A stretch of DNA of 33,311 bases from Campylobacteraceae bacterium (GTDB lineage: Bacteria > Campylobacterota > Campylobacteria > Campylobacterales > Arcobacteraceae), in contig JABSOL010000008.1 in assembly GCA_013215985.1 (NCBI GenBank), positions 1-33,311 of the forward strand. Direction: 5' to 3'. The position numbers and the translations under genes were made by a program. Below, in pieces: positions 1 through 4,735 of this stretch. Position 1 is the stretch's first letter. Every line of letters starts with the position of its first letter. The notes beneath the pieces are model-generated. The model was not told the DNA's origin and made no database searches. It saw nothing but the letters and a program-made list of their open reading frames with translations.

Positions 1-444
1 AAGAATTCTTCATTTTTTACTAATAATGACTTTATTATTGAGGACTTTAGTTTTATAATTAATAAAAAAATTAAAGATATGAATAAAGAAGAGACTAAAG
101 TCGTCAAAATATTAAATCGTACTAAGTATTTAAATTTTATTTCTATTTTCTTTAATGAATTAATAAGAAATAAAAATTTTATATTCTTTATGATGCCTTT
201 ATTCTTTTATTTATATAGCGCATTCATTTTTTATTCCAATAATACATTGAACTTTTTTGTAATTATGTGCTTATTATTAATTATTTTTGCGATTATAAAT
301 TTGGTTGGAACCTTCTTTATCGTTATTTTTATGAGAAAAAGTGTTATAATTAAAAGCATTGTCAAAAAAAAACAAGAAAAAATATATGCAATTAAGATAA
401 AAGAAAAGTATAAAGAAATAAAAGAAAAAAGAAATAAATATTAA
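1..444 (+). CDS. Hypothetical membrane protein, 5' end outside the window (partial)
   Basis: The frame of the 79..444 ORF is open back to base 1 (KNSSFFTNNDFIIEDFSFIINKKIKDMNKEETK...). Two hydrophobic helices (FIFFMMPLFFYLYSAFIFY; FFVIMCLLLIIFAIINLVGTFFIVIFM) and a Lys-rich tail. The ATG at 79 is probably internal. Confidence 0.6.
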   Translation, partial: KNSSFFTNNDFIIEDFSFIINKKIKDMNKEETKVVKILNRTKYLNFISIFFNELIRNKNFIFFMMPLFFYLYSAFIFYSNNTLNFFVIMCLLLIIFAIINLVGTFFIVIFMRKSVIIKSIVKKKQEKIYAIKIKEKYKEIKEKRNKY

Positions 445-804: not shown

Positions 805-2160
805 TTGTTACATATAAAATATAAAGGATTAAGATTGAGTTATACTGAAATAGAGAAATTAGGTCGAGGTGGATTTGCAGAAGTTGTGAAAGTAACTGAT
901 GGAAATACTGAATATGCTAAAAAAATATTTTCACCTAGTCAAAATCTTTTGGATGGTGTAGGAATTGATGAATTAAAAAGAAGATTTAAAAGAGAAGTTA
1001 AGTATCAAAAAAGTTTAACGCATAGAAATATTTTAGAAATATTAGATGTTTATTTAACCGAACAACCTCCTTATTTTATAATGCCATTAGCTGATTGTAC
1101 ATTGGAGTATGAATTAAAACATAATATGCCAGATAGTCCTAAAATAAAAATAATACTATTTGATATTTTAGCTGGACTTGAATTTCTTCATTTAAAAGGT
1201 TTTAAACATAGAGATCTTAAACCTGCTAATGTTTTAAAATTTTCTGATAATAATGAAGATAGATATGCAATATCTGATTTTGGTTTAATTTCTGCAAATG
1301 AAAGTGATTCTTCTACTATCACTGCAACAGGACAAGGCGCAGGTACTCAAAATTATTCTGCTCCAGAGTTAATTAATGGAGGCTTGAAAAAGGCAACTTT
1401 TAAAGTTGATATTTATTCGTTTGGTGCAATTCTACATGATATTTTTGCATCAGGATCAAGTAGAACCCCCTATTCTGAAATTATTTTTCCAGGAGAAATT
1501 GGGATAATTATGTCTAAATGTACAAAAACTAATCCTTTGAGAAGATATAATTCTGTATCTGAATTAAGAGAAGAGATATATGATTATTTAAATACAAATA
1601 TTATATCCTTTGTATCAGATTTTGAAGAGTCTTTAGTCTCTTTATTAAAAGAAAAAAATAATCAAGGAAATCCATTAACTAATGATGAGTGGGATAGAAT
1701 TTTTTCATATATAGATGAAAATCCATGTGCTATTAATATTTATAAAACAATAAGTGAAGAACAAATATTAGAATTGCATGAAAATCCTTCACTTTTTAAT
1801 GCAATGGGCGAATATTTTGCTGAATATATAAAAAATTATAGCCATGATTTTGCTTATTGTGATATTTTGGCAAGTAAAGCTGAAAAATTTTATGATAATG
1901 GAGATTTAAGCTTAAAATCAGAAATTGCAATTACATTATTGTTATTGGGGACAAGTCATAATAGATGGTATGTTGAACAAAAATTTATGAGAATGATAAA
2001 TACAGAAATAAGTGATATTCTTGCTGAAAGAATTAAAGTAGAATTAGATGTACAAGATATAGATTTCATATCTAAAATGAATCATGTTTGTAATTCTATT
2101 TCTATAACAACTGATAATATGCACCCAATTCTAGAAAACTATTTAAATGAGTTACAGTAA
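805..2160 (+). CDS. Serine/threonine protein kinase with about 170 aa C-terminal extension of unknown function
   Basis: Gly-rich loop LGRGGFAEV, Lys in YAKKIF, HRDLKPANVL catalytic loop, DFGL, SAPEL, DIYSFGAIL. Apparent TTG start. Confidence 0.9.
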   Translation: MLHIKYKGLRLSYTEIEKLGRGGFAEVVKVTDGNTEYAKKIFSPSQNLLDGVGIDELKRRFKREVKYQKSLTHRNILEILDVYLTEQPPYFIMPLADCTLEYELKHNMPDSPKIKIILFDILAGLEFLHLKGFKHRDLKPANVLKFSDNNEDRYAISDFGLISANESDSSTITATGQGAGTQNYSAPELINGGLKKATFKVDIYSFGAILHDIFASGSSRTPYSEIIFPGEIGIIMSKCTKTNPLRRYNSVSELREEIYDYLNTNIISFVSDFEESLVSLLKEKNNQGNPLTNDEWDRIFSYIDENPCAINIYKTISEEQILELHENPSLFNAMGEYFAEYIKNYSHDFAYCDILASKAEKFYDNGDLSLKSEIAITLLLLGTSHNRWYVEQKFMRMINTEISDILAERIKVELDVQDIDFISKMNHVCNSISITTDNMHPILENYLNELQ

Positions 2161-2870
2161 TGATTAAAAATTCTAGTTTTTCAAGTCAAGGTAAGAATAA
2201 ATTAAATCAAGATGCAATATTGTTCTATTCAACTGATAACCATACCTATCTATTTGCTATTGCAGATGGAATGGGTGGAAAGTATGGTGGTAACATTGCA
2301 TCAAACTACTCTCTTAACTTAGTGGAAGAATTATTTAAAGAAGATAATAATATTAGTATTAAGAATATGTTTTCTTTAATATCCGAAAAATTAAAAGAAT
2401 TTTCAAAAAAATTTACTGAGTATTCTAAAATGGGAACAACCTTAACTATTTGTATCGTAAGAAATAATCGTTTATATTATGGACATGTAGGAGATTGCCG
2501 AATTTATCATTTGAGAAATGAAGGAATAGTTTCTAAAACGAAAGATCAAACTGAACTTCAAGAATTATTAGATAAGAAGGTTATAAATAAATATGCAGCA
2601 AAATCGTACCATCGTAAAAATATTTTACTATCAGTTATGTCAGCCACATCTTCTTACACTTTAGAAGAAGGGTATTTTGATATACAAACTAAGGATAGAT
2701 TACTATTATTAAGTGATGGCGTGTATAATGTAATTAGAAATAAAAAATATATAAGGGATCTTTCTCTTACTTCTACATCTTTAACTGTATTTATAGATAA
2801 AATCAGAAATACAATTATTGAAAATGGGGTAATAGATGATTATTCATGTATTGGTATTGAAATTGAATAA
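2160..2870 (+). CDS. PP2C-family (PPM) protein phosphatase
   Basis: NQD, ADGMGGKYGG, MGTTLTICIV, GHVGDCRIYHLR, LLLLSDGVYN and DDYSCIGIEI motifs. Start overlaps the kinase stop by 1 nt (TAATG). Confidence 0.92.
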   Translation: MIKNSSFSSQGKNKLNQDAILFYSTDNHTYLFAIADGMGGKYGGNIASNYSLNLVEELFKEDNNISIKNMFSLISEKLKEFSKKFTEYSKMGTTLTICIVRNNRLYYGHVGDCRIYHLRNEGIVSKTKDQTELQELLDKKVINKYAAKSYHRKNILLSVMSATSSYTLEEGYFDIQTKDRLLLLSDGVYNVIRNKKYIRDLSLTSTSLTVFIDKIRNTIIENGVIDDYSCIGIEIE

Positions 2871-2910: not shown

Positions 2911-4155
2911 TTAACTTATCTTTGGTAGACTAATCCTATCCAAGTAATTTGCATACCAACAAATTACCCCTCTCATTCCATTTACATAAGAAGCTCTATT
3001 ATAAGCTGCTTTAATTTTGTTTTGTTCTTTATGTGAGAGTAGGGCTTCTATTACTTCTGCTGTATATTTATGTCCATTTTCTGAATTAGCATTTTCATAT
3101 GCTATTGTTGAAAACATAGCTCTAAAACTATGAGGAACAAATTCTTCTTTTGTAAAGCCCATTCTTCTTAGTGCTGTAATTAAAGTATTATCACTCATTG
3201 GTTTATTTTTGAGTATATAACTTGGAAATACATATTTACTTTCAAAAGTATATTCTTTTATTTCATTTAGGATTTTTATTACTTGTGGAGGTAGAGGAAG
3301 AATAAATTCTATTTTAGTTTTCATTTTATGTTTTGGAATAGTCCATTCTTCTTTCTCAAAATCAATTTCAGACCATTCACAGTGTCTAATATTAAAACTT
3401 CGTACAAATACATAAGGAAGCATCTTTAAAGCCATTTTAGTACTGTAATCACCTGGGTAATCATCAATAGCTAAAAGTAATGCTTTTATATCTTTATCTT
3501 TTGTGAAAGTAGGGTAGTGTTTTTTTTCTCTTTTTCCAATTACTATTTTTTGATCAATATCAGAGATTATATTATGAGGTACATATTCTAATGTTACTGC
3601 ATACATAAATACTTTATTTAAAAGCATATAAACTCTTTTTGCAGTTTCTTGTATTCCTTTTGCTTTTAAATCTTTTAATACTTCTATAATGTCTAATCTA
3701 GTTATTTCATCAATAGCTTTATTTTTTAGAAAATGATAAGTATAGTTTTCTAAAGCACGACCTAATTTAATATGATAGTTTTCAGATACTTCAGATCTAT
3801 AATGTTCTAACCATTCTTGAGAGATTTTAAAAAAAGTGTTATCTTTTTTAATTTCTATAATTTTATTGTTAGCTTTCTTTTTTTTCTTTTCTTCTGCTGG
3901 ATCAATTTCGTTTGCAATTAAAGATTTATACTCTTCTTTTTTATCTCTTGCATTCTTTAATGAGAAAGATGGATATGTTCCTAATGATATAACTTTTTCT
4001 TTATCATTGAATCTATATTTGAATCTCCAACTCTTACCACCTTTTTTTGTGATTAATAAAAAGAGACCACCTCCATCAAAAACCTTGTAATCTTTTTCTT
4101 TGGCTTTGAGTGAATTTATTTTTGTTACAGTTAGTGGGACAATCGGCTTAGCCAT
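2911..4155 (-). CDS. P4/DUF4102-type tyrosine recombinase (integrase)
   Basis: N-terminal DUF4102-like region (LTVTKINSLKAKEKDYKVFDGGGLFLLITKKGGKSWRFKYRF...SLGTYPSFSLKNARDK). Catalytic motifs: Arg in FVRSFNIRHCEWSEID, HSFRAMFSTIAYE, LLSHKEQNKIKAAYNR. RBS-like AGGAGG upstream. Confidence 0.95.
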   Translation of the reverse strand: MAKPIVPLTVTKINSLKAKEKDYKVFDGGGLFLLITKKGGKSWRFKYRFNDKEKVISLGTYPSFSLKNARDKKEEYKSLIANEIDPAEEKKKKKANNKIIEIKKDNTFFKISQEWLEHYRSEVSENYHIKLGRALENYTYHFLKNKAIDEITRLDIIEVLKDLKAKGIQETAKRVYMLLNKVFMYAVTLEYVPHNIISDIDQKIVIGKREKKHYPTFTKDKDIKALLLAIDDYPGDYSTKMALKMLPYVFVRSFNIRHCEWSEIDFEKEEWTIPKHKMKTKIEFILPLPPQVIKILNEIKEYTFESKYVFPSYILKNKPMSDNTLITALRRMGFTKEEFVPHSFRAMFSTIAYENANSENGHKYTAEVIEALLSHKEQNKIKAAYNRASYVNGMRGVICWYANYLDRISLPKIS

Positions 4156-4342: not shown

Positions 4343-4735
4343 TGGTGGAGATGTGGAGAATCGAACTCCAGTGTTAAAACATATCAAAATAGCGTCTACA
4401 TGTTTAGTAAAAGGTTGATTAATTTCATTTTAAAAAAGCTCTACCTGCAAGGCTTTTAAAAAACTAAGATTCTAAATGTCTTCTTGAAAGCAAATCAGCT
4501 TTCCAAAAATAAGCTATTAGGGGTGAACTCATTTAAATCTACCTATATAGCCTCAGTAGAATGAGCCTCCTAGTCTCGACCCAATAAAGGGGAGTCTAAA
4601 TTAAAACTTACGCTGCTGCGTAAGCTGGAGAATAATTTGTGTTATTTGCGTTTAAAAAAAATGAACCGTGTAACGGCATGTTCAGGCCGACATGCAACTA
4701 TCCCTCTATGCTCCAATCGATGCCAAGTCATCCCC
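4343..4735 (-). ncRNA. ssrA: tmRNA (transfer-messenger RNA)
   Basis: Minus-strand 5' GGGGATGACTTGGCATCGA and 3' GGAGTTCGATTCTCCACATCTCCACCA; acceptor GGGGATG pairs with CATCTCC. Tag ORF (4608-4649) reads GCA AAT AAC ACA AAT TAT TCT CCA GCT TAC GCA GCA GCG TAA = ANNTNYSPAYAAA*. Confidence 0.97.

Follow-up and report, generated by a model that had tools for sequence, protein, structure and literature searches.

A kinase-phosphatase gene pair lies at the very beginning of contig JABSOL010000008.1 from the Campylobacteraceae assembly GCA_013215985.1, next to an integrase gene and the gene for tmRNA. The window (the whole stretch of 33,311 nucleotides that was analysed) starts with the first base of this contig from a draft genome, so that the element cannot be followed further to the left. 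The relevant features are:

1..444, + strand: 5'-truncated membrane-protein-like ORF to the left of the pair, without family match
805..2160, + strand: gene for a Ser/Thr protein kinase (Pkinase domain, catalytic motifs)
1564..2157, + strand: all-alpha C-terminal domain of the kinase (confident structure prediction, family alignment)
2160..2870, + strand: gene for a PP2C-type Ser/Thr phosphatase of 236 aa (PP2C_2 domain), its start overlapping the kinase stop
2911..4155, - strand: tyrosine integrase (Arm-DNA-bind_3 and Phage_integrase domains) at the 3' end of ssrA
4343..4735, - strand: tmRNA gene (ssrA), the 3' end of which is the integration target and faces the integrase

A prior sequence-only reading had placed the two ORFs at 805-2160 and 2160-2870 with a 1-nt overlap, and both the coordinates and the overlap were confirmed. 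The overlap has the motif TAATG; stop/start overlaps of this type are the usual mark of translational coupling. The kinase is assigned to Pfam Pkinase (E=1.1e-34, residues 13-216), and all of its Pfam matches are to kinase-domain families, with a kinase domain that spans approximately residues 13-265 and a C-terminal helical domain at approximately residues 254-451. The phosphatase is assigned to PP2C_2 (E=3.8e-15). Across 46 non-redundant pairs, the Arg and Asp of the HRD motif, the catalytic-loop Asn and the DFG Asp are invariant, as are all five sampled acidic residues of the PP2C; in the family alignments, the catalytic Lys of strand beta-3 (K40 when the 451-aa protein is numbered) never varies. 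The window kinase has the APE Glu, which only 40 of the 46 representatives retain. While the catalytic residues and the APE Glu reported earlier for the window proteins thus stand, the 451-aa start probably does not. The N-termini of kinase homologues align from about window residue 11, and an in-frame TTG at position 835 has a Shine-Dalgarno-like AAAGGA 6 nt upstream. The kinase therefore probably starts at this TTG, which results in a protein of 441 aa.

The integrase reads toward the kinase-PP2C pair, and its start adjoins the 3' end of the tmRNA gene. In a congener (G003), ssrA and the integrase are about 98% identical to the window, but homology stops at window position 2937, within the last codons of the integrase, and is followed by unrelated sequence; the kinase is absent from this genome. 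Since homology ends inside the integrase and the kinase is missing there, the pair behaves as exchangeable cargo at ssrA. This agrees with its earlier description as cargo of an ssrA-integrated element, for which integrase and tmRNA were also confirmed. A 23-mer search of the draft genome for the distal att site, a further copy of the ssrA 3' end, gave no hit. Other genes are found at the ssrA 3' end in congeners, so that ssrA is an integration site, and seemingly a hotspot of integration, in the genus. Downstream of ssrA, one congener (G002, L152) has VirD4-like coupling-protein and relaxase-like genes and another (G001, L151) has a Fic-like ORF and a chemotaxis-receptor-like ORF, all named by eye from their translations. 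The ORF at 1-444, at the contig edge, is very A+T-rich (18% G+C) and is probably further cargo of the element.

The kinase is patchily distributed. It was found in none of the 59 other genomes from relatives and in none of 396 Campylobacterota genomes, searched with whole-protein or C-terminal profiles (the two sets partly overlap and together comprise about 450 other genomes). Full-length relatives (the long form) occur elsewhere. By tblastn, three Acinetobacter plasmids (L004, L005, L006) match with 97% coverage and 36-38% identity, and on all three the PP2C is the next gene after the kinase. These plasmids may share a backbone; each also carries a BrnT/BrnA toxin-antitoxin pair downstream of, and convergent to, the kinase-PP2C pair. 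A genome scan identified the pair in Oceanibacterium hippocampi, where a tyrosine integrase and the 3' fragment of a tRNA lie next to it. A scan of viral contigs with the single kinase as query returned no relatives, whereas alignment queries recovered them: three prophage contigs (L014, L015, L016) carry the long-form pair. A fourth (L017), a Myxococcus-like prophage contig, codes for a long-form kinase including its C-terminal domain without a PP2C, which makes it the one exception among nine long-form loci. In L016, the pair lies between a P2-type replication gene A (gpA, PF05840) and the portal/terminase genes (portal/gpP), and in L014 it adjoins the portal gene of the L016 type. The gpA-gpQ interval of P2 is a hotspot of antiviral systems (Rousset et al., PMC9122126). 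Distant Streptomyces kinases (L009, L053) also lack a PP2C; the one from a Streptomyces plasmid (L009) has a weak match to the C-terminal domain and is located beside a site-specific integrase. A neighbourhood survey had been suggested as a check on the pair, and it found that the two genes stay together, beside integrases or inside phages.

A short form of the kinase (about 255-280 aa) lacks the C-terminal domain and is also followed by a PP2C. It is found in lambdoid-type phages, at moron-like sites of temperate phages. Carriers are Escherichia phage Flotzy, Cronobacter phage phiES15 (021/022) and dozens of viral contigs, as well as prophage-like regions of plasmids from Ewingella and Arsenophonus. 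On two plasmids, the short-form pair is located beside the defence system Septu: p251 from Vibrio tubiashii (PtuA E=2e-171, PtuB E=8e-79) and plas3_LRT from Acinetobacter baumannii (PtuA E=3e-127, PtuB E=1e-63). The short-form pairs (kinase in PHROG 2361) resemble the window pair in gene order and overlap, and their kinase and PP2C are homologous to those of the window, but the kinase has only about 255 aa, is devoid of the C-terminal domain and, like its PP2C, occupies a separate branch of the tree. The long forms are a single clade (support of 0.96 in the kinase-domain tree, which includes L017, and of 0.99 in the PP2C tree), so that the C-terminal domain marks one lineage. Literature searches returned no paper on the function of short-form phage kinase-PP2C pairs.

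At nearly all intact loci, the kinase gene precedes the PP2C gene, the two overlapping or lying no more than 10 nt apart. The strictness of pairing was analyzed in short-form loci from draft viral contigs. For a kinase-anchored scan, the best 80 of 225 loci were evaluated. Both genes are intact in 75 of these 80, an intact kinase is accompanied by a partial PP2C in two (a cut at the contig end and a frameshift, L133), and a broken kinase by an intact PP2C in three, one of which is an assembly repeat. No intact kinase without a PP2C gene was encountered among these best 80 of 225 loci. The loci L032/L137 were not accepted as a broken pair, their internal kinase/PP2C duplications looking like an artefact of viral-contig assembly. 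With the PP2C as bait, the kinase is deleted or frameshifted in 6 of 35 loci. Across the two scans, a broken or deleted kinase accompanies an intact PP2C at L020/L022, L023, L027, L045, L047 and L069. The comparison of 6/35 with 1/79, where 79 is the number of kinases that are intact or as good as intact (80 loci minus the assembly repeat L137), gives Fisher p=0.003 for loci that are non-independent and contigs that are drafts. With about six lesions in kinases and one in a PP2C, the asymmetry of decay is small, and it comes from draft viral contigs. In addition, kinase and PP2C distances correlate over 46 non-redundant loci (Mantel r=0.78, p=1e-4), which is the co-inheritance looked for in a type VII-like toxin-antitoxin system with an enzymatic antitoxin. 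Such a pattern of pairing, decay and co-divergence would be expected of a kinase that does harm in the absence of its phosphatase.

The C-terminal domain of the kinase is a conserved domain with no known relative. A C-D motif and the run S-H-N-R-W-Y-V are invariant. AlphaFold2 predicts an all-helical fold (pLDDT 89.9, pTM 0.82) from alignments without the plasmid rows. No relative was detected in Pfam, PHROG or among PDB sequences, a Pfam search with the domain from nine members returned nothing significant, and Foldseek gave no significant match (best E 0.037 in PDB and 0.3 in BFVD). A likeness to 14-3-3 and Pumilio proteins is weak (E about 0.1, TM <0.45) and was not adopted. The initial impression that this region matches nothing known was thus borne out by all of these searches. 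Sensing, substrate choice and PP2C binding are three candidate roles of the domain.

The closest known system to the window pair, one that the sequence-only reading does not name, is KKP (kinase-kinase-phosphatase, PfpC-PfkB-PfkA), which prophages carry as a module (Guo et al. 2024, PMC11341870). Its two kinases are jointly toxic, and its PP2C reverses this toxicity (PMC11341870); the PP2C is inhibited by Gp59 of phage T4 (PMC11341870). KKP also governs the lysogeny of Pf prophages via MvaU phosphorylation (PMC11341870). As in KKP, a Hanks-type kinase is encoded together with a PP2C on prophages and other mobile elements, and the logic which we propose (kinase as toxin, PP2C as antitoxin) would be the same. 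Unlike KKP, there is one kinase instead of two, and the order is kinase-PP2C rather than PP2C-kinase-kinase, which holds for all long-form relatives that have a PP2C. The cold-shock domain of PfkA and the FHA domain of PfkB are replaced by an unrelated helical C-terminus. With one kinase, the opposite gene order, and neither a cold-shock nor an FHA domain, the pair is thus a KKP-like two-gene module rather than a member of KKP. Literature searches returned KKP as the sole kinase-phosphatase module of phage defence.

The kinase also matches PADLOC models, Mad6 of MADS being best (156 bits), followed by PD-T4-6 (118 bits) and Stk2 (91 bits), but these matches cover mainly the kinase domain. The window PP2C matches PADLOC PDC-M21 weakly (38 bits). 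PD-T4-6 and Stk2 are single-gene systems without a PP2C, unlike the window pair, and no other MADS gene is seen near it.

We consider it probable, with KKP as an experimentally tested precedent, that the pair is a mobile two-gene module of toxin-antitoxin type, based on phosphorylation, which most likely serves anti-phage defence of the abortive type. In an uninfected cell, the co-translated PP2C would hold the kinase and its targets dephosphorylated. Infection could act through a phage product, through loss of the PP2C or through a signal that the C-terminal helical domain of the kinase detects. The balance would then shift to the kinase, and host or phage proteins would become phosphorylated, arresting growth or phage production. 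We infer the toxicity, neutralisation and defence of this scheme from the operon-like pair, its intact active sites, the near-obligate pairing, the co-divergence, the residence on mobile elements and the nature of the pair as swappable cargo. The defence reading is strengthened by location: a long-form pair is in the P2 gpA-gpQ hotspot (L016), another is portal-adjacent (L014), and short-form pairs have Septu as a neighbour on two plasmids. The two-gene phospho-switch of the sequence-only reading is upheld in its core, a coupled mobile pair, and gains on the side of defence. The requirement of KKP toxicity for two kinases, only one of which is present here, counts against such a module, as do the kinases without a PP2C (L017, L009, L053) and the intact kinase beside a frameshifted PP2C (L133).

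A rather unlikely alternative is that the pair regulates its own element, the balance of kinase and PP2C setting how far a host nucleoid protein or repressor is phosphorylated and thereby controlling excision, lysogeny or the silencing of co-resident elements. That the pair adjoins integrases or sits in prophages fits this reading, and KKP provides a precedent in steering lysogeny through MvaU (PMC11341870). However, the pair is also found on plasmids without integrase or phage genes and the short form beside Septu, and control of excision would be pointless there. The small Acinetobacter plasmids, on which the pair accompanies BrnTA as a second toxin-antitoxin pair, would fit instead with a pure addiction (stability) module, in which loss of the element would free the kinase so that segregants are killed or arrested. 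Near-obligate pairing of kinase and PP2C would be accounted for as well, but the PP2C is not obviously unstable, copies in prophages and chromosomal islands need no segregation aid, and the gpA-gpQ and Septu neighbourhoods favour defence; we thus judge addiction improbable.

Far less probable still, and largely refuted, is housekeeping signalling by a Hanks-type kinase and PP2C (as in PknB/PstP) or a TerY-P or T6SS post-translational locus. The catalytic domains are common to the window pair and the Stk1/PknB-PstP housekeeping pairs; the kinase domain also matches PknB, and the PP2C matches Stp1 and PppA by sequence. Their scores are, however, far under the curated cut-offs: 106.4 bits against 450 for the Stk1/PknB equivalog (NF033483) and 149.4 bits against 230 for Stp1 (NF033484), so that neither assignment was made. 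The window kinase has neither PASTA domains nor a membrane segment, and the pair is mobile and patchy, being absent from the other Campylobacterota genomes searched (about 450) and present on plasmids and phages. A TerY-P triad was rejected as there is no vWA gene in what can be read of the element, and regulation of the PpkA/PppA type as there is no T6SS gene there or among those listed for the carrier plasmids. Nor are vWA, tellurium-resistance or secretion genes listed on the three complete plasmids with the pair, for which the PLSDB tables are incomplete. The earlier remark that the pair has no visible TerY or secretion partner is therefore in line with both the readable element and the plasmid lists.

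If the defence module is real, the design with a kinase as toxin and a phosphatase as antitoxin is general and does not require two kinases. A smaller, two-gene version of a KKP-like system would then occur on plasmids, in P2-type as well as lambdoid prophages, and in islands, with the long form contributing a conserved C-terminal domain as a candidate for sensing or substrate choice. It is tempting to speculate, although we hold this to be somewhat short of probable, that the window pair represents, for the Campylobacterota, a two-gene system of phospho-immunity that is as yet undescribed. Its SHNRWYV domain would sense or target, doing the work that is divided in KKP among a second kinase, a cold-shock domain and an FHA domain, and the system would be part of a wider uncharacterised family of temperate-phage kinase-PP2C morons.

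A separate observation concerns the Vibrio plasmid p251 (L007:256-6569). Septu PtuAB, a PDC-S35 candidate and a restriction endonuclease are located right before the short-form pair in this region, resulting in a compact defence cluster.
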